From: Nitrospinota bacterium
GTDB taxonomy: Bacteria > 2-12-FULL-45-22 > JACOWJ01
Length of the DNA stretch: 15,104 bases
Direction of reading: 5' to 3'
NCBI GenBank assembly: GCA_016176845.1
Contig: JACOWJ010000019.1
Location: 1 to 15,104 of the forward strand
Position numbers and translations under genes: made by a program. The notes under the pieces were generated by a model. The model was not told where the DNA came from. It was given only the letters and a program-made list of their open reading frames with translations, and did not search any database. Below, piece by piece: positions 855 through 15,104 of this stretch (its first letter is position 1; the number at the start of each line of letters is the position of its first letter).

Positions 855-3459
<2,605 letters not shown>

Positions 3460-5436: not shown

Positions 5437-6970
5437 AGATGTGAGGGATAAAGGGCCATGGGGAAGGGAGCTGATCGAAAGTTTCTTGCCTTCTGAGGTG
5501 CAGAAAGTATTCCAGATGGTGGCCTCCGTGGCTGGCCAGGCGGGATTTCCGGTTTATACGGTAGGAGGGCTGGTCCGGGACCTTTGGCTGAGGAAAAGGC
5601 ACGAAGAAAACCGACATGGCCAAGCTACATTCGCCGCCCCCGAGAATGAAAATGGGCTCCCGAGGGACTCAGGCATCTTCACGGTAAAAGCCCAAGGCTC
5701 AAAGCTCAAAGCTCAAAGCAGCGATCCGCTACGAGCGCGTCCCGACGTAGACCTGGTGGTCGAGGGGAACGGCCTGTCGGTGGCCCGAGAGCTGGCAGCT
5801 CGCCTGGTTGGAAAGATCAGGATCCACAAGTGGTACGGGACGGCAGTCCTATTGCTGCCGAGCGGCCTGAGAGTGGATGTGGCCACGGCCCGTAGAGAGC
5901 GGTACGAACGACCCGCGGCCCCTCCCCAGATAGAACCGGCCTCCATTCAGGATGACCTCTACCGGCGGGATTTCAGCATCAACGCCCTGGCGATTCGACT
6001 CAACGGGCCGGAGGCTTACCGGCTGGTCGATGATTTTGGAGGTTTGAGGGATCTGGAGGAAGGGTTGATCCGCGTGCTTCACCCCCGAAGCTTTATCGAG
6101 GATCCTTCTCGGATCCTTCGAGCGATCCGGTTCGAGCAGCGGTTCGCTTTTGCGATCGAGGAGTCCACGCTGAAGCTTATGCAAGAGGCGATCGAAGAGG
6201 GGTGGGTGGGCCGCCTCAGCGGGCCGAAGCTATGGCTGGAATTAACCTACCTCTTGAGGGAGAAGGGCAAGGCCCCACTGAAGAACATCCGGCGAATGAG
6301 CGAACTGGGCCTGTTAAAATTTATTCATCCTCACCTGATCCTGACCGATCGGTTAGAAGAGCTCTTAGCCCGAGTTGAAGAGGTCTTGGGCTGGTACCGA
6401 AGCCTTCATGTAAAGAAGGAGGACGGGCGAAGGGCGCCCTCTCCGGAAGAAGATGCGGCATCCTGGTCAACCTCCCAGAAAAGAGAGTCATTGAGGTTAC
6501 AAGACCTGCAGGAGATCCAGCCTTCGCTTCTTTACCTCATGGGCCTGGTCAGTGGGCTAATGGACCCGGAAGTGGAGGAGGTCTTCCAGCGCCTTTCCCT
6601 TCGCCCTGAAGAGGTCCGGAAGCTGAAAGTCGCCCAACGGCACGTGCCCATCGTGGCAGAAGAGCTGGCTTGGGCGAGGGATATCCCCCCTGGAAAGCTA
6701 TATCGCCTTTTGAGCCCCCTTCCCCCGGAAGCCCTTCTGTGGTTAGCAGTCCAGGCCCCAACGGCAAGGATTCGGCCTTTGATCGCCTGTTACCTGACCG
6801 AGCTTCGCGACATGGAACCTTTCCTCCGGGGAAGGGACCTGGTAAAGCTGGGGTTAAGGCCTGGTCCCGTCTTCAAGGAGATTCTAAACCAGACACGGGA
6901 GCTGAGGCTCAATGGCGTCCTGAAGACCAGGGAGGACGAGATCCAATTCGTGAAGGAGCATTATCTTTGA
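5426..6970 (+). CDS. cca: CCA tRNA nucleotidyltransferase / poly(A) polymerase family protein with in-frame insertions
   Basis: A class II nucleotidyltransferase that probably adds or repairs tRNA 3' CCA ends; poly(A) polymerase is the alternative, as the two are hard to separate by eye. Motifs: VYTVGGLVRDLWL (43-55), DVDLVVEG with catalytic Asp107/Asp109, RVDVATARRE (Asp151), YRRDFSINALAI (179-190), DDFGGLRDLEEG, DPSRILRAIRFEQRF. Normally the GG-LVRD and DxD motifs are separated by few residues; here about 46 extra residues (59-104) intervene, encoded by palindromic element copy 2 and a CTCAAAG heptamer array. A second apparent extra segment, around residues 335-372 (from HVKKEDG), is low-complexity and charged. 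The product is 514 residues. Start ATG 5426 lies within queD and has no good ribosome site; GTG 5441 is possible. Its stop overlaps trpS by 1 nt. Confidence 0.88.
   Translation: MKTEDVRDKGPWGRELIESFLPSEVQKVFQMVASVAGQAGFPVYTVGGLVRDLWLRKRHEENRHGQATFAAPENENGLPRDSGIFTVKAQGSKLKAQSSDPLRARPDVDLVVEGNGLSVARELAARLVGKIRIHKWYGTAVLLLPSGLRVDVATARRERYERPAAPPQIEPASIQDDLYRRDFSINALAIRLNGPEAYRLVDDFGGLRDLEEGLIRVLHPRSFIEDPSRILRAIRFEQRFAFAIEESTLKLMQEAIEEGWVGRLSGPKLWLELTYLLREKGKAPLKNIRRMSELGLLKFIHPHLILTDRLEELLARVEEVLGWYRSLHVKKEDGRRAPSPEEDAASWSTSQKRESLRLQDLQEIQPSLLYLMGLVSGLMDPEVEEVFQRLSLRPEEVRKLKVAQRHVPIVAEELAWARDIPPGKLYRLLSPLPPEALLWLAVQAPTARIRPLIACYLTELRDMEPFLRGRDLVKLGLRPGPVFKEILNQTRELRLNGVLKTREDEIQFVKEHYL
5617..5689 (+). 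repeat. Dispersed palindromic element, copy 2 (in frame in cca)
   Basis: A 73-bp unit, TGGCCAAG to ACGGTAAAA, in the same orientation and the same reading frame relative to the host gene as copy 1. It is read as PENENGLPRDSGIFTVK. The first hairpin GGCcAA / TTcGCC keeps five of six pairs around a 6-nt loop; the second pairs CCG..TGAAAATG with CATCTTCACGG, with one A-C mismatch, across a 19-nt spacer. Directly downstream lies a CTCAAAG heptamer array. Confidence 0.8.
5698..5718 (+). repeat. CTCAAAG heptamer array (3 copies, coding)
   Basis: Three perfect CTCAAAG heptamers, preceded by a degenerate one (CCCAAGG, 5691-5697). The 21-bp array is translated within cca as part of QGSKLKAQSS. The same heptamer recurs at the lspA 3' end (11304-11324). 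Twenty-one bases are seven codons, so gain or loss of three heptamers would keep the frame. Confidence 0.75.
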
Positions 6971-7977
6971 TGGAAAAAAAACGCGTGGTAAGTGGCGCTC
7001 GGCCCACGGGCCGACTGCATCTGGGAAACCTGGTGGGGGCCCTGGAGACGTGGAGGGAATTGCAGGACCAGTACGAGTGTTTCTATTTCGTGGCGGATTG
7101 GCATGCCCTGACCACCGATTACAGCGATCCTGGCCAGATCCAGGAGAATATCCTGGAGATGGTGACAGACTGGTTGGCGGTCGGCCTGGACCCGAACCGG
7201 TGCACCCTCTTCGTTCAATCGACGGTGCCGGAGCACGCCGAGCTCCACCTGCTGCTCTCCATGATCACTCCTCTGGCCTGGCTGGAGAGGAATCCCACAT
7301 ACAAGGAGATCCAGCAGGAGCTGGGAGAGCAGAAAGACCTGTCTACCTATGGCTTCCTGGGTTATCCGGTCCTGCAGGCCGCCGATATCTTAATCTACCA
7401 GGGCAACTTCGTTCCCGTGGGGCAAGACCAGCTCCCCCATGTCGAGCTGACCCGGGAGATCGCGCGCCGTTTTAACCACCTGTATCATCGCCAGCTCTTT
7501 CCGGTGCCCGAGCCCCTGCTGTCCCCGGCCCCTAAGGTGCCAGGCACGGATGGCCGCAAGATGAGCAAAAGCTATAACAACGCCATCTACCTTTCGGACC
7601 CCCCGGAGGTGATCCGGCAGAAGATCAAGACGATGACGACCGATACGGCGCGAGTCCGCCGAAACGACCCAGGAGACCCGGAACGGAGCCCCGTTTTCTC
7701 CCTGCACAAGATCTTTAGCTCGGAGGAAGAGAAGGCTGATGTGGCTCAGGGTTGCCGGACCGCCGGCATCGGATGCCTCGACTGCAAGGCCATATTAATT
7801 CACAATGTCTTGCAGGCCTTGGGCCCAATCCAGGAGCGGCGTTCCACCATTGCTGCGCGCCCCTCTTTCGTGATGGAGGTCCTGGCGGATGGGGGGAAAC
7901 GCGCCCGGGCGATCGCCCGCAGCACGCTCATGGAGGTTCAGGAGATCATGGGGATTCATAATAAAAGGATAGTGTGA
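6970..7977 (+). CDS. trpS: Tryptophan--tRNA ligase
   Basis: Charges tRNA-Trp in the cytoplasm. The 335-residue product has the usual family length. The class I signature appears as [12 protein letters not shown] (HxGN form of HIGH, residues 14-25), then [58 protein letters not shown] and [10 protein letters not shown] (KMSKS 197-201). Start: ATG 6970 overlaps the cca stop by 1 nt (TGATG). An upstream in-frame ATG at 6670 would add 100 residues from another frame of cca and is rejected. It ends in a 1-nt overlap with ileS. No leader, T-box or attenuator can exist between these genes. Confidence 0.97.
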
Positions 7978-10823
7978 TGAAAGAGACTTTGAACCTGCCC
8001 CGGACGGCCTTTCCGATGAAGGCAAATCTGCCGGAGAAGGAGCCGCAGATCCTGAAGATGTGGGAAACAGAGGAGATTTACCAACGGATCCGGGAGAAGT
8101 TCGCCGGCCGGCCCAAGTATATCCTGCACGATGGTCCCCCTTACGCCAATGGACATATCCATATCGGGCATGCCCTCAACAAGATCCTTAAGGATATCGT
8201 GGTCAAAGTCAAGACCATGGAGGGCTATGATGCACCCTATGTCCCGGGCTGGGATTGTCATGGGCTGCCTATCGAGCAGCAGGTAGAGCAATTAGAAAAA
8301 ATCAGCCGGAAGAGCGGAGCGGATCGGAAGGAGATCCGCCGGGCCTGCCAACAGTTTGCGGGGAAGTTCGTCGAGATCCAACGGGAGGAGTTCAAACGAC
8401 TGGGGGTTTTCGGCGATTGGGCCCATCCTTACCTGACCATGAATTATGGCTACCAGGCCACCATTTTGCGGCAGCTGGGGAAGTTCATGGGAAACGGCAG
8501 CCTTTACAAGGGCATGAAGCCGGTCCATTGGTGCTTCTCTTGTCAGACGGCCCTGGCGGAGGCCGAGGTCGACTACGAAGAGCACACCTCCCCTTCTATC
8601 TACGTACGGTTCCCCATGGAGGATGACCTGGGAGAGCGAGTCCCCTCTTGCCAGGGCCGTCAAGCCTCCGTGGTCATCTGGACCACCACGCCCTGGACGT
8701 TGGTGGCCAACCTGGCGGTCTGTCTCCATCCTCGCCATTCTTACGTGGCGGTCGGGGTGGACCGTGAAGTATGGATCCTGGCTCAGGACCTCCTGGAGCC
8801 TACCCTGGCCAGGCTGGGCGTAAGGGATTACCAGATCCTGGAGTCCTTCCCGGGATCGGTTCTCGAGGGGCTGAGGTGCCGCCATCCCTTCCTGCCCAGG
8901 GATTCCCTGCTGATCCTGGGAGAGCACGTTACGCTGGACCAGGGGACCGGCTGCGTCCATACGGCCCCGGGGCACGGCCAGGAGGACTACGAGATCGGGC
9001 TTAAGTATGACCTGGAGGTCTATAATCCGGTGGATGAGGAAGGCCGCTTTGTCTCCGGAACCGATCATTTTACCGGGATGCACGTCTTCGAGGCAAACGC
9101 GGCCGTCAACGCCCGGCTGAAAGAGCAGGGACATCTGTTGCGGGAGGAGACCGTCCAGCACTCTTATCCCTATTGCTGGCGCTGTCACCATCCCATCATC
9201 TTCCGGGCTACCCCCCAATGGTTCGTCTCTATGGAGGTGGGGGAGTTGCGCGCCCGGTCCCTGGCCGCCATCCGGCAAGTCCAATGGGTCCCCAGCTGGG
9301 GGGAGGAACGCATCTACGGCATGATCCAAAACCGTCCCGATTGGTGCATCTCCCGCCAACGGGTTTGGGGAGTTCCCATCACCGTCTTCTATTGTACGCG
9401 CTGTTCGAATCCGCTGGTCTCGCAGGAAGTGACGGAGCACGTGGCCGCCCAAGTGGAGCGGGAAGGGGCCGATATCTGGTTCGAGCGAGAGGCCCAGGAG
9501 CTGTTGCCACCGGGAACGCATTGCCCTAAGTGCGGAACCTCTCACTTTGCCAAGGAGCAGGATATCCTGGACGTATGGTTTGACTCCGGAGTAAGCCATG
9601 AAGCGGTCCTGGCCGGCGGGGATAGTTCCTTCAGTGAGTTAGGCCTGCGTTGGCCGTCCGACATGTATCTGGAAGGAAGCGATCAGCACCGGGGGTGGTT
9701 CCATAGCTCCCTGCTGGTGGGGATCGGCACCCGAGGAGAGGCCCCTTACCGGACGGTGTTGACCCACGGCTACGTGGTGGATGGCGAGGGACGGAAGATG
9801 TCCAAGTCTCGGGGCAACGTCATCGCCCCCCAGGACATCATCGACCAGAATGGGGCGGAGATCTTGCGACTCTGGGTGGCCTCGGAGAATTACCGGGAGG
9901 ACATCCGGATCTCCCCCGAGATCCTGCAGCGGTTGGTGGAGGCCTACCGGCGCATCCGCAACACCTGCCGCTTTCTCTTGAGCAACCTGTACGACTTCGA
10001 TCCCCAGCGCGACCGGGTCCCTTACGAACGGCTCCCAGAGATCGATCGGCTCATGCTGCACCGGACCCAGAAGCTGATCGCCCGGATCCTGAAAGCCTAT
10101 CGCGAGCACGAGTACCATATCTTTTATCACGCCTTCCACAACTTCTGCGTGCTGGATCTGAGCAGTTTCTACCTGGATATCTTAAAGGACCGGCTCTACA
10201 CCTTCCGAGCCGACTCTGAAGGGCGTCGGGCTGCCCAGACCGTGTTGTGGGAGGTGCTGTTCGCGATGGTCAAGCTGATGGCCCCGGTCCTGAGCTTTAC
10301 GGCAGAGGAGATTTGGCAGCAACTGCCTGCAGGCAGCGGGGCTTCGTCCAGCGTCCACCTGGAGGAGTTTCCGTCAATCCAAGAGGGCTATCTCGACGAG
10401 CCGCTGGCCGCTCGCTGGGAGCGATTGCTCGCCGTAAGGGGAGAGGTGACCAAGGCCCTGGAGATCGCCCGCAAGGAGAAGATGATCGGCAATTCCCTGG
10501 AAGCCTCCGTGGATCTCTATCTCACGGCGGAGGCTGCCTCGGAGTGGTATCCTTTATTACAGGGGTATGTCGATGAGCTGCCCGCCATTTTCATCGTCTC
10601 CCAGGTCGGGTTGCACAAGGGAGCCGGGGAGCCAGGGAAAAACCTCCCCAGCTCCCCGGCTCCTCTGCTCCCCTGCTTAGTTTCTGCCCTGCCCGGATTA
10701 TCCATTGCGATATCCCGGGCAAGGGGGAGGAAGTGCGAACGATGCTGGATGTACAGCGAAACGGTGGGGCAAAACGAGGCTCTTCCCTCTCTCTGTCAGC
10801 GGTGCGTGGAAGTGGTAAGTTGA
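7977..10823 (+). CDS. ileS: Isoleucine--tRNA ligase with in-frame palindromic insertion
   Basis: Charges tRNA-Ile and edits misactivated valine. Motifs: [15 protein letters not shown] with HIGH at 62-65, [18 protein letters not shown] of the editing domain, [50 protein letters not shown] (KMSKS 607-611), and C-terminal zinc cysteines C920/C923 and C940/C943. This is the bacterial zinc-containing type. Residues 882-896 derive from a perfect 44-bp palindromic segment just before the zinc domain and are not expected in the family. Start: ATG 7977, overlapping trpS by 1 nt, with AGGA 7 nt upstream; GTG 7974 is a one-codon-longer option with poorer spacing. 948 residues. The stop overlaps lspA. 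Confidence 0.97.
10620..10663 (+). repeat. Perfect 13-bp inverted repeat inside ileS
   Basis: Arms GGAGCCGGGGAGC (10620-10632) and GCTCCCCGGCTCC (10651-10663) are exact reverse complements around an 18-nt loop. It is translated in frame as a Gly/Pro/Ser-rich peptide ([15 protein letters not shown]). The mRNA would form a very stable hairpin within the coding sequence. Confidence 0.85.
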
Positions 10824-11317
10824 GAAGGAAGTATCGGTTATTAGCGATCATCTCAGGGCTCGTGGTGCTATGCGATCAGGTCTCGAAGCTCTATATTGAG
10901 CACGCCCTTCCTTTACACAGCGCGATCGAGGTGGTGGAGAACTTTTTCCAGATCGTCCATATCCGAAACACGGGAGTGGCCTTTGGGATCCTGGCAGCCG
11001 AGGACCGTTTTACTCTGATGCCGCTTTTCGTGGCCATCTCGCTGCTGGCGGTAGGGATCGTCATTTACCTGTATGCGAAGACGTCCGATGAAAGCCTGGG
11101 CAACTTGTTCGCCCTGGCCCTGATCCTGGGAGGGGCCCTGGGGAACCTGATCGATCGAGTACGGTTAAATGAGGTGATCGATTTCCTGGACTTCCATTGG
11201 TACCAGCTTCACTGGCCTGCCTTTAACATCGCCGACTCCTGCATCACGGTGGGGGTGGGACTTTTTATCGCGATGAACCTTAGGCAGCATGAGCATACGA
11301 CAGCTCAAAGCTCGTAG
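10820..11317 (+). CDS. lspA: Lipoprotein signal peptidase (signal peptidase II)
   Basis: Inner-membrane aspartyl protease that removes signal peptides of lipid-modified prolipoproteins. From the chosen start the product is 165 residues, normal for the family, with four hydrophobic segments. Motifs: [14 protein letters not shown] (14-27), [10 protein letters not shown] (49-58), [11 protein letters not shown] (104-114), VIDFLDF with Asp121, and [11 protein letters not shown] with Asp139; these two Asp form the catalytic dyad. I chose TTG 10820, which overlaps the ileS stop as TTGA and gives a basic N-terminus RRKYR; GTG 10802 would add six residues. The last residues (TAQSS) and the TAG stop are encoded by heptamer-repeat DNA. 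Confidence 0.94.
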
Positions 11318-11354
11318 CTCAAAGCAAGGAGACTCAAAACGGTGAGCTACGAGC
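11304..11354 (+). repeat. Heptamer array and 12-bp inverted repeat at the lspA-lgt junction
   Basis: CTCAAAG, CTCGTAG, CTCAAAG follow each other at 11304-11324, with the lspA stop TAG inside the middle unit. GCTCGTAGCTCA (11310-11321) is the exact reverse complement of TGAGCTACGAGC (11343-11354), with a 21-nt loop. The hairpin ends about 20 nt before the lgt start. It has no T-tract, so it is not a classical terminator; it might stabilise mRNA or be a mobile-element trace. Confidence 0.75.
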
Positions 11355-12272: not shown

Positions 12273-13640
12273 TTAAAGGTCCAGCGTGACGTAATAACCG
12301 TAGCTTCCCCTCTGGACCAAAAGGAGGGCGTTGTTCCGGTTGAGTAGGGATAAGACGGCCTGGCGGAAATCTTGAAGGCCTTCGATCCTTTGTTTATTGA
12401 TCTGTCGAATGAGATCCCCCGGCTGAATGCCAATCTTCCCCGCCGGGCTATTCTTCTGGACGTTGCTGACCACGACCCCTCTGGAAGGACCGAATCGGCG
12501 AGAAAGGGGGTTTACCGAGATGCCCAGCAGATCTCTTCCGAGCTCCTCGGCCAGCTCTCTCGGGACAACCCTGGCTACCAGGGAGGTCCGGCCTTCCCTT
12601 CCCTGCCGAAAATAAGTAAACTGGAGGGTATCGTTCGGCCCGTAAGAGGAGATGAGGTCCAAATAAACATCCTTGTCCCCAAGCTTCTGTCTCCCAATGG
12701 CGGTTAAGATATCTCCCGGACGGAAGGCGGCGGCCTCTGCTGGGCTCCTCTGATGGACCCGGCGGACGACCACCCCATAATTTTGGGGATAGCCCAAAGA
12801 TCGGGCCAGCCGAGGGGTAACATCCTCCACGATCAACCCCAGCCAGATCTCCTTGACTTCCCCATGGGCGATCAGTTCCCGGACAATGCGCTTGGCACGG
12901 TCGATGGGAATGGCAAAGCCGATCCCTTGGGCCTGCTGATAGATCGCCGTATTCACCCCAACCAGCTCGCCATTGATGTTTAAAAGCGGTCCGCCGCTGT
13001 TGCCCGGGTTGATCGAGGCGTCCAACTGGATGAAATCGGTGTAGACCCGGTTGTCGGTCTTCAGGGAGCGGTGCATGGCGCTGATGACGCCGGTGGTTAC
13101 AGTGTGTGAGAGGCCGAAGGGGTTGCCGATGGCGATGATCGTCTCACCAATCATCAGGTCATCGGAACGGCCCATCTTGAGGTAGGGCAAGGAAGTAGGT
13201 GCGGAGATCTTCAGGACGGCCAGGTCCGACCGGGGATCCGCCCCGATCAGTTGGGCCTCATACTCTCGATTATTGATCAAAGAGACCTTGATTTTCGAGG
13301 CCTGAGAGATGACGTGCTCGTTGGTGAGGATATACCCCCTGGGATCAATGATCACCCCAGATCCCAGGCTTTGTCTCTTGTAGTCCCTTTCCGGGAAAGA
13401 CTCGAAGAAATCCCCAAAGAACTCCTCAAAGAAATCATTCCCCCATCCTGAGAAGGGATTCACCCGCTCCCGGACATGCTCCTCCGTATTGACATTGACC
13501 ACCGCCGCCCCGGCCTTCTCTACAGCTCGTACCACGGCATTCTTCCGGGACTCTTGCGCTCTGGTAGGTAAGGAAGAGATGGCACCTATCAACAGGAGAA
13601 AGAAAACCACCCTTCCTCCCCGCTTTACGAAAGTTGTCAT
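12273..13640 (-). CDS. HtrA/DegQ-type periplasmic serine protease, downstream paralogue
   Basis: Degrades or refolds damaged envelope proteins. 455 residues from the chosen start: signal peptide with basic n-region and hydrophobic core VVFFLLLIGAISSLP ending near PTRAQ (residue 29), trypsin-like domain with His109 (LTNEHVI), Asp139 (RSDLAVL) and Ser215 (NPGNSGGPL), then two PDZ domains at about 265-355 and 370-455 ending YVTLDL. The FFEEFFGDFFESF stretch (69-81) lies in the N-terminal loop region. Start ATG at 13640-13638 has no good ribosome site; a TTG upstream would read the heptamer array, and GTG at residue 11 has GGAGG upstream but would remove the basic n-region. It is 84 nt downstream of its paralogue, and likely co-transcribed. 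Confidence 0.92.
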   Translation of the reverse strand: MTTFVKRGGRVVFFLLLIGAISSLPTRAQESRKNAVVRAVEKAGAAVVNVNTEEHVRERVNPFSGWGNDFFEEFFGDFFESFPERDYKRQSLGSGVIIDPRGYILTNEHVISQASKIKVSLINNREYEAQLIGADPRSDLAVLKISAPTSLPYLKMGRSDDLMIGETIIAIGNPFGLSHTVTTGVISAMHRSLKTDNRVYTDFIQLDASINPGNSGGPLLNINGELVGVNTAIYQQAQGIGFAIPIDRAKRIVRELIAHGEVKEIWLGLIVEDVTPRLARSLGYPQNYGVVVRRVHQRSPAEAAAFRPGDILTAIGRQKLGDKDVYLDLISSYGPNDTLQFTYFRQGREGRTSLVARVVPRELAEELGRDLLGISVNPLSRRFGPSRGVVVSNVQKNSPAGKIGIQPGDLIRQINKQRIEGLQDFRQAVLSLLNRNNALLLVQRGSYGYYVTLDL

Positions 13641-13666
13641 TGGAAACCGTAAAGTGCAAAACGGGA

Positions 13667-13701
13667 AATTTTCAATTTTCAATTTTCAATTTTCAATTTT
13701 C
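13667..13701. repeat. AATTTTC heptamer array between the two htrA genes
   Basis: Five perfect AATTTTC units in a row, then a partial AATT. The strongly AT-rich array sits in the 84-nt gap of the htrA pair, just upstream of the downstream gene's start. On its right side is a small hairpin, CCCC GAA GGGG (13706-13716), which on the minus strand reads CCCCTTCGGGG and could form a UUCG-type loop right after the upstream stop. Confidence 0.8.
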
Positions 13702-13724
13702 AATTCCCCGAAGGGGTGGGGGGC

Positions 13725-15104
13725 CTACCCTTTCTTGAGCGTGAGAAAGAGGGTATTTTCTCCTCGCTTGACCAGCATTAACAGGGAGGATTTGTCCGTG
13801 GCCTTATCCAAAATCCTCTTATAGTCCTTAACGTTCTCTACCTTCTCCCGATTCAGCTCCAGGATCACATCCCCCTGCCTCAATCCCGCTTCCTGGGCTG
13901 CACTGCCCGGCTCCACCTCCGAGATCACCACCCCTTTGGGATCTTCCAGATTCATCTGTTTGGCCATCTCCGAGGTGATATCCTCGAGGGTCATGCCGAG
14001 CCTCTCGCTGGTCTTTTTCTCGGCGGCCAGCTTCTCGGGCTCTTCCTGTTTGCCCACGGCCACCCTGAGAGTCTTCGGTTTCCCTTCCCGCAAGATCTTG
14101 ACCTCCACCTCTTTTTCCGGTGGGGTCTCGGCGACTACCTTGGGGAGATCCTCCATGGTCTTGATCGGTTTGTTGTTAAACTCGAGGATGACATCCCCTC
14201 GCTGGAATCCCGCCTTTTCCGCCGGGCCACCCTTCAGAACATCGGACACCAGCGCCCCTTGTTCCTCCTTGAGATTAAAGGACTCGGCCAGCTCCGGCGT
14301 GATCTTCTGGACCAGGACGCCCAGCCAACCTCGGGTGACGCTCCCTTTGGTCTTCAGATCATTCAAAATCGTCTTGGCCATATTGATGGGAATAGCGAAA
14401 CCGATGCCTTGACCACTGGCCATAATGGCCGTATTGATCCCGATGACCTCGCCCCTGGCGTTGATCAATGGCCCTCCACTGTTGCCGGGGTTGATCGAAG
14501 CATCGGTCTGGATAAAGTTATCATACGGGCCAGAACCGATATCCCGCCCCATGGCGCTCACCACGCCCACCGTGACCGTATGGTTCAGGCCAAAGGGATT
14601 GCCAATCGCCACCACCCATTCACCCACCTCGATCTTGTCGGAATCACCCAGAAGGGCAACTGGCAGGTTCCCATTGGACTTGATTCGGATCAGGGCGATA
14701 TCGGTCTTGGGGTCCGTACCGACCACCTCACCATCATATTCCTTGCCGTTCTCCAATGTGACCTTGATCTCGTCGGCCTTCTCGATGACGTGGAAATTGG
14801 TCAGGATATACCCCTCTTTGTCAATGACAAAGCCCGAACCCAGGCTTTTTCGCTTCTCTGGCCCGCGCGGCATGTCGAAGAAGTGCTCGAAAGGTTCCTC
14901 TCCAAAGAACTCCTCGAAGGGATTGCGATGGCCGAAAGGACTTCCTTTGGGCTTCGGCCCGGACTGCCGCTTGATCGTCCGGCTCGTGCTGATATTGACC
15001 ACGGCCGGTTTTTCTTCTTTGACAATCTTCACGATGAGGTCTGAGCCAAAGGGATGAGCAGAAGGGACGATGGTTGCTGCTTCAACTTTTGGGACTGCAG
15101 AACC
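13725..15104 (-). CDS. HtrA/DegP-type periplasmic serine protease, upstream paralogue (5' end outside window)
   Basis: The open frame runs from the stop at 13727-13725 to the right edge without interruption, giving 459 visible residues; the signal peptide lies beyond the window. The mature N-terminal region KEEKPAVVNIS is visible. Catalytic residues, numbered from the visible edge: His105 (LTNFHVI), Asp135 (KTDIALI), Ser209 (NPGNSGGPL). Two PDZ domains follow, each with a GDVILE(F/L)N-type core, separated by a charged linker (EEPEKLAAEKKTSERLG). The loop FEEFFGEEPFEHFF matches that of the downstream paralogue. A GTG at 15032 is not the start, since coding similarity continues past it. It is transcribed first of the pair. 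Confidence 0.94.
   Translation of the reverse strand, partial: GSAVPKVEAATIVPSAHPFGSDLIVKIVKEEKPAVVNISTSRTIKRQSGPKPKGSPFGHRNPFEEFFGEEPFEHFFDMPRGPEKRKSLGSGFVIDKEGYILTNFHVIEKADEIKVTLENGKEYDGEVVGTDPKTDIALIRIKSNGNLPVALLGDSDKIEVGEWVVAIGNPFGLNHTVTVGVVSAMGRDIGSGPYDNFIQTDASINPGNSGGPLINARGEVIGINTAIMASGQGIGFAIPINMAKTILNDLKTKGSVTRGWLGVLVQKITPELAESFNLKEEQGALVSDVLKGGPAEKAGFQRGDVILEFNNKPIKTMEDLPKVVAETPPEKEVEVKILREGKPKTLRVAVGKQEEPEKLAAEKKTSERLGMTLEDITSEMAKQMNLEDPKGVVISEVEPGSAAQEAGLRQGDVILELNREKVENVKDYKRILDKATDKSSLLMLVKRGENTLFLTLKKG

Follow-up and report, generated by a model that had tools for sequence, protein, structure and literature searches.

An in-frame hairpin in ileS is probably a copy of a lineage-specific palindromic octamer repeat that lies within genes

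We propose that a hairpin within the isoleucyl-tRNA synthetase gene ileS of a Nitrospinota bacterium probably belongs to a family of short palindromic repeats that is specific to its lineage and carried in frame in genes, mostly between protein domains. The host gene occupies positions 7974..10823 of the plus strand of the window (the whole stretch of 15,104 nucleotides that was analyzed) and encodes a 949-aa protein recognized by TIGR00392 (979.9 bits against a cut-off of 621.4) and by its Pfam domains. A perfect inverted repeat with 13-bp arms and an 18-nt loop had been reported in frame in ileS, and the inverted repeat search recovered it exactly so, with the 5' stem arm at 10620..10632 and the 3' arm at 10651..10663 (plus strand). 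This hairpin lies within a larger structure, in which an array of G-rich octamers (GGGGAGCN) is followed by its inverted array. Judged from the period-8 arrays detected by TRF, the translation and the related copies, the entire octamer palindrome spans 10618..10677 on the plus strand and codes for about residues 882-902. Its G-rich arm (10618..10638; 2.6 octamers, AGGGAGCC / GGGGAGCC) and longer C-rich arm (10644..10677; 4.2 octamers, CCCCNGCT) were both found by TRF at period 8, and comparison of cores placed an A-rich center at 10639..10643, with the flanking core GGGAAAAACCTCCCC. On one arm the octamer is GGGGAGCN, on the opposite arm it is NGCTCCCC, and the center between them is GGGAAAAACC. 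In the protein, the element is located after the anticodon-binding region and just ahead of the C-terminal zinc finger (PF06827, residues 920-947). When the whole window was shuffled 300 times with dinucleotides preserved, three shuffles produced a perfect arm of at least 13 bp with a loop no longer than 30 nt. Since related copies exist elsewhere in the genome, a chance origin of the ileS hairpin is untenable.

As the preliminary description had anticipated in speaking of palindrome families, the unit is repeated. A search of the genome (G000, a fragmented draft of 1.53 Mb in 61 contigs, 68% complete) found octamer arrays at at least 14 loci: C1:22084, C5:11992, C7:4153, C14:9599, C17:1408, C24 (ileS), C26:1, C29:296, C35:37461, C37:1555, C38:399, C56:94458, C61:11240 and C61:86970. 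An exact two-octamer pattern matched 14 times in G000, once for the reversed control, at no site in G001 (the only same-order genome in the comparison) and at most four times in any other of the 145 genomes searched. A stricter array-plus-inverse pattern matched five loci in G000 and none in 624 kb around ileS of related species. Isolated pattern matches (on C4, C16, C28, C31, C60 and others) were left out of these counts, and those inspected formed no inverted arrays. A literature search for the octamer string gave no match; most subscription journals lay outside its reach, so an earlier description is possible.

Counts for complete elements refer to the 12 that have both arms on the contig. 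The two contig-end elements adjoin PriA in one case and an exonuclease-like gene in the other; because two contigs, C26 and C56, break off within octamer arrays (L237 1-42 and the end of L236), the assembly evidently fails at such repeats, and further copies may have been missed. Such breaks, in a fragmented and 68% complete draft, raise the question of whether the repeats were misjoined during metagenome assembly or binning. We consider this hardly credible, since random misjoining would not give flanks from the same protein in the same frame: the sequences on either side of 11 elements belong to one protein in one frame or, at lutB-lutC, to operon neighbors.

The elements share an architecture as well as a unit. 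The G-rich arm lies 5' of the C-rich arm in all 12 complete elements (two-sided sign test, 0.0005), an order that is identical whichever strand is read. Size ranges from 60 to 180 nt, the number of units varies, the arms are unequal and the ends blur into the octamer array. In the best copies, the A-rich center takes the form GGGGAAAA...CCCC, and the ileS core resembles the centers of the DnaE, radical SAM, TIM-GAPDH and alanine racemase (Alr) copies, with GGGAAAA near the center in all five. A shared ancestry for the entire unit is unproven, as a clear core is present in only these 5 of the 12 copies and the other seven are not obviously alike. An alternative hypothesis, which we regard as unlikely but worth keeping in view, is that the elements arose locally and by convergence in GC-rich, mutation-prone linkers, where octamers multiplied by slippage and intrastrand template switching then copied the array in inverted form, without any mobile unit. 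The variable unit numbers, the unequal arms, the dissimilar cores and the location of the elements in variable linkers are all compatible with such growth. Neither target-site duplications nor a mobilizing enzyme for the octamer repeats, of the REP type or otherwise, came to notice in the 68% complete genome; together with the weak core, the missing transposase keeps local growth alive as an explanation. Against it, 12 unrelated genes of a single genome carry the same octamer, which G001 lacks and which is scarcely present in the other genomes searched; the array-plus-inverse pattern is likewise missing around ileS in related species, GGGAAAA is common to five cores, and the order of the arms never changes. 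That a dozen unrelated genes repeat both the octamer and the order of its arms favors a common unit.

All 12 complete elements lie in genes, 11 of them in intact frames and one in a gene remnant. Pfam or alignment identified the hosts as a radical SAM protein, an aspartate/ornithine carbamoyltransferase, an HdrA-like protein, DnaE, an ABC exporter, IleRS, ComEC, LutB-LutC, MutS2, a TIM-GAPDH fusion and alanine racemase. The remnant, on C37 (L232 1242-1793), appears to derive from an ABC exporter gene that has lost most of its ATPase domain, and carries the octamer palindrome in the same linker as its paralog on C17. Should most of the genome be coding, 12 of 12 in genes would by itself be no departure from random landing; what is unusual, compared with known repeats of such kind, is that the elements survive there. 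Of the 11 elements that could be tested, nine are located outside Pfam domains, against an expectation of 3.9 (P about 5e-4), a rough estimate given incomplete Pfam coverage and a second LUD domain start in LutB-LutC that was set by hand. This bias toward domain boundaries is what tolerance alone would give.

Comparison with G001 shows that several hosts are longer at the element. DnaE carries about 34 extra residues (APGSRHDR...ISEASFHL against APENRQQK...IADASYHL), alanine racemase about 54, located between its two domains, and the carbamoyltransferase about 20; on alignment these three clearly appear to be clean insertions. The linkers of MutS2 and TIM-GAPDH are also longer than in G001, and the ComEC alignment at the element is too poor to show a gap.

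For IleRS, the proposal that the segment is an insertion into a short variable linker stands in part. The linker is indeed variable: the IVS motif and KCxRCW are 43 residues apart here and 35 in G001, and the spacing lies between 20 and 37 in nearly all other IleRS sequences, with one at 51. The nearest IleRS sequences come from Desulfobacterota, Nitrospirota and Firmicutes, and not from rickettsiae. Taken alone, ileS gives weak evidence of insertion, because the G001 linker is already 20 residues long and Pro-rich. That linker has no hairpin comparable to the ileS element and is eight residues shorter, so the element either lengthened or partly replaced a variable linker. In a structure model of IleRS (mean pLDDT 85.8), residues 887-897 form the only long internal run below pLDDT 50; the run lies inside the insert, in a loop joining one strand that ends at 882 to another that starts at 899, and the insert is thus modeled as a disordered loop.

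Whether the hairpin serves the cell as RNA can be considered from its predicted fold. At ileS, a 14-bp helix (10619-10632/10651-10664) with an inner 4-bp helix gives -42.8 kcal/mol and z = -5.0 against dinucleotide shuffles, and strong folds are predicted for the remaining copies too (-40 to -114 kcal/mol). A functional mRNA element, retained for co-translational folding or mRNA control, might hold back ribosomes after the anticodon-binding region and before the zinc domain, or might be a target for cleavage by RNase III, and the preference of the copies for domain boundaries would suit such a role. We think this very improbable: IleRS orthologs manage without the element, the hosts have no pathway in common and tolerance explains the boundary bias equally well. 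An Rfam search of the element returned microRNA and sRNA models, all far under their gathering scores, and these sub-threshold hits were rejected as family assignments, being the kind of match that a GC hairpin attracts by chance. Ribosome pausing at the ileS hairpin, which the preliminary description had raised, is therefore not supported, the stable stem being the sole point in its favor.

Under the interpretation that we prefer, that of a repeat family, copies would arrive as a hairpin unit through transposition or template copying, and octamers would later be gained or lost through replication slippage. Selection would then retain only those copies that keep the reading frame through their total length and that encode Gly/Ala/Glu or Pro/Ser/Leu peptides acceptable in a flexible linker. 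Most likely the insert is a passenger that the host tolerates, and a benefit to the cell need not be assumed. The insertion events cannot be dated because the family is found in one genome only.

The octamer itself may help to account for persistence in coding sequence. Since 8 is not a multiple of three, an octamer array passes through all reading frames, and in none of the six does any octamer variant tested contain a stop codon. The same holds for about 60% of random octamers with a GC content of 60%, so that six-frame openness is permissive and not diagnostic; it does offer a simple and testable reason for the unit's survival. A stronger reading, which we hold to be doubtful, is that the octamer palindrome is confined to coding sequence and acts as a natural supplier of interdomain linkers, even joining neighboring genes. 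In that reading, a unit open in six frames could enter any gene in either orientation. The case in point is lutB/lutC: in G001 the two are separate neighboring frames, whereas in G000 a single 741-aa frame runs from LutB via the octamer palindrome to LutC (L231 448-2670), with the element at the junction and an internal ATG retained in LutC. A second candidate fusion, between triosephosphate isomerase (TIM) and a GAPDH-like domain (L234 1442-3586), was ruled out as a creation of the element, as G001 has the same fusion without it; the element therefore entered a pre-existing linker.

Most bacterial palindromic repeats are intergenic, the Rickettsia elements and some REPs being exceptions (PMC3767692, PMC3733652, PMC10969869). 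The Rickettsia palindromic elements (RPE), described by Ogata and co-workers and summarized in PMC3767692 and PMC10969869, resemble the octamer repeat in lying in frame in unrelated genes with the frame intact, dnaE among the hosts (PMC3767692, PMC10969869), in occurring as several families per genome and in having orthologs elsewhere without the insert. The corresponding features here are a multi-copy palindrome (at least 14 loci, with all 12 complete elements inverted), 11 intact ORFs and gaps in the G001 orthologs of DnaE, Alr and the carbamoyltransferase. In contrast, RPE measure about 100-150 bp, differ in sequence from family to family and occur in intracellular bacteria, and ORFs are favored by some of their families only, whereas the octamer repeat consists of a period-8 G-rich array and its inverse, spans 60-180 nt, comes from an uncultured lineage and is genic in all 12 complete copies. 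It is best read as a repeat that would work like the Rickettsia elements while being built differently. Rickettsia supplies the best-known in-frame palindromic elements, a standing example of selfish DNA that became protein. The octamer repeat, a different unit that seems to be entirely genic and belongs to an unrelated lineage, would be an independent case of DNA entering genes, and bears on why inserts end up at domain boundaries and whether genes can be fused by them.

Other repeats share single traits with the octamer family. GTAG/CGTC REPs are short hairpins that are sometimes in frame in genes (PMC3733652), and intragenic REPs also occur in DNA-repair and tRNA synthetase genes (Opitutus terrae, Rickettsia conorii and others; PMC3733652). 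REPs, however, are single stems of 20-40 bp with an intergenic majority, whereas the octamer elements are arrays and, at 12 of 12 genic, have no such majority. No GTAG or CGTC tag adjoins the stem (10610-10690, inspected by eye in the ileS copy only), the 68% complete G000 has no match to the RAYT/Y1 transposase family (PF01797), and REP/RAYT membership was dropped on these two counts. The G-rich heptamers GGGNATC of Xanthomonas and Nostoc, found mainly in non-coding DNA (PMC4692102), are likewise short tandem units of a length not divisible by three in which four or more G-tracts are possible; unlike these mainly intergenic repeats, each complete octamer copy is an inverted pair in a gene. 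The enterobacterial RU-1/2/3 repeats, units with ORFs that occur inside genes, similarly add coding sequence to host proteins (PMC2759123), but they are MITE-like, measure 103-168 bp, occupy multiple intergenic regions and lack the octamer structure (PMC2759123).

A further palindrome, 85 nt long and common to kdsB and cca (window 1375-1460 and 5604-5689), has 44 matches in G000 and none in 40 other genomes. The octamer element is unrelated to it in sequence, as the preliminary description had noted, and at least two palindrome families are therefore present in genes. The 85-nt family is mostly outside genes: among 30 copies examined, no more than nine are contained entirely in frames of at least 300 aa, many of these near an end, and only those in cca and an FtsQ-like gene were confirmed as internal. 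A Fisher test on this family used a by-eye estimate of 5 of 30 and is indicative only. G001 has a palindrome of its own (GTAGCNGCAGGGCCTTGCCCTGCC), GTAG-tagged and REP-like, with 19 matches that are mostly between genes. One of these copies (L283, G001:C108:5664-5744) is in frame in the N-terminal part of LutC, close to the position of the octamer element at the lutB/lutC junction of G000.

Several smaller features were observed in the window. Directly after the 85-nt element in cca lies an array of the heptamer AAAGCTC (4.7 units, 5687-5719), so that two repeat types are stacked in a single gene. An inverted repeat with 12-bp arms and a 21-nt loop, containing GCTCAAAGC-like heptamers, is located at 11310-11354, at the end of the gene after ileS, and a perfect array of the heptamer AATTTTC (5.6 units, 13667-13705) is apparently intergenic. 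Two neighboring minus-strand ORFs (12273-13682 and 13725-15032) share about 71% DNA identity in stretches and likely represent a tandem duplication.
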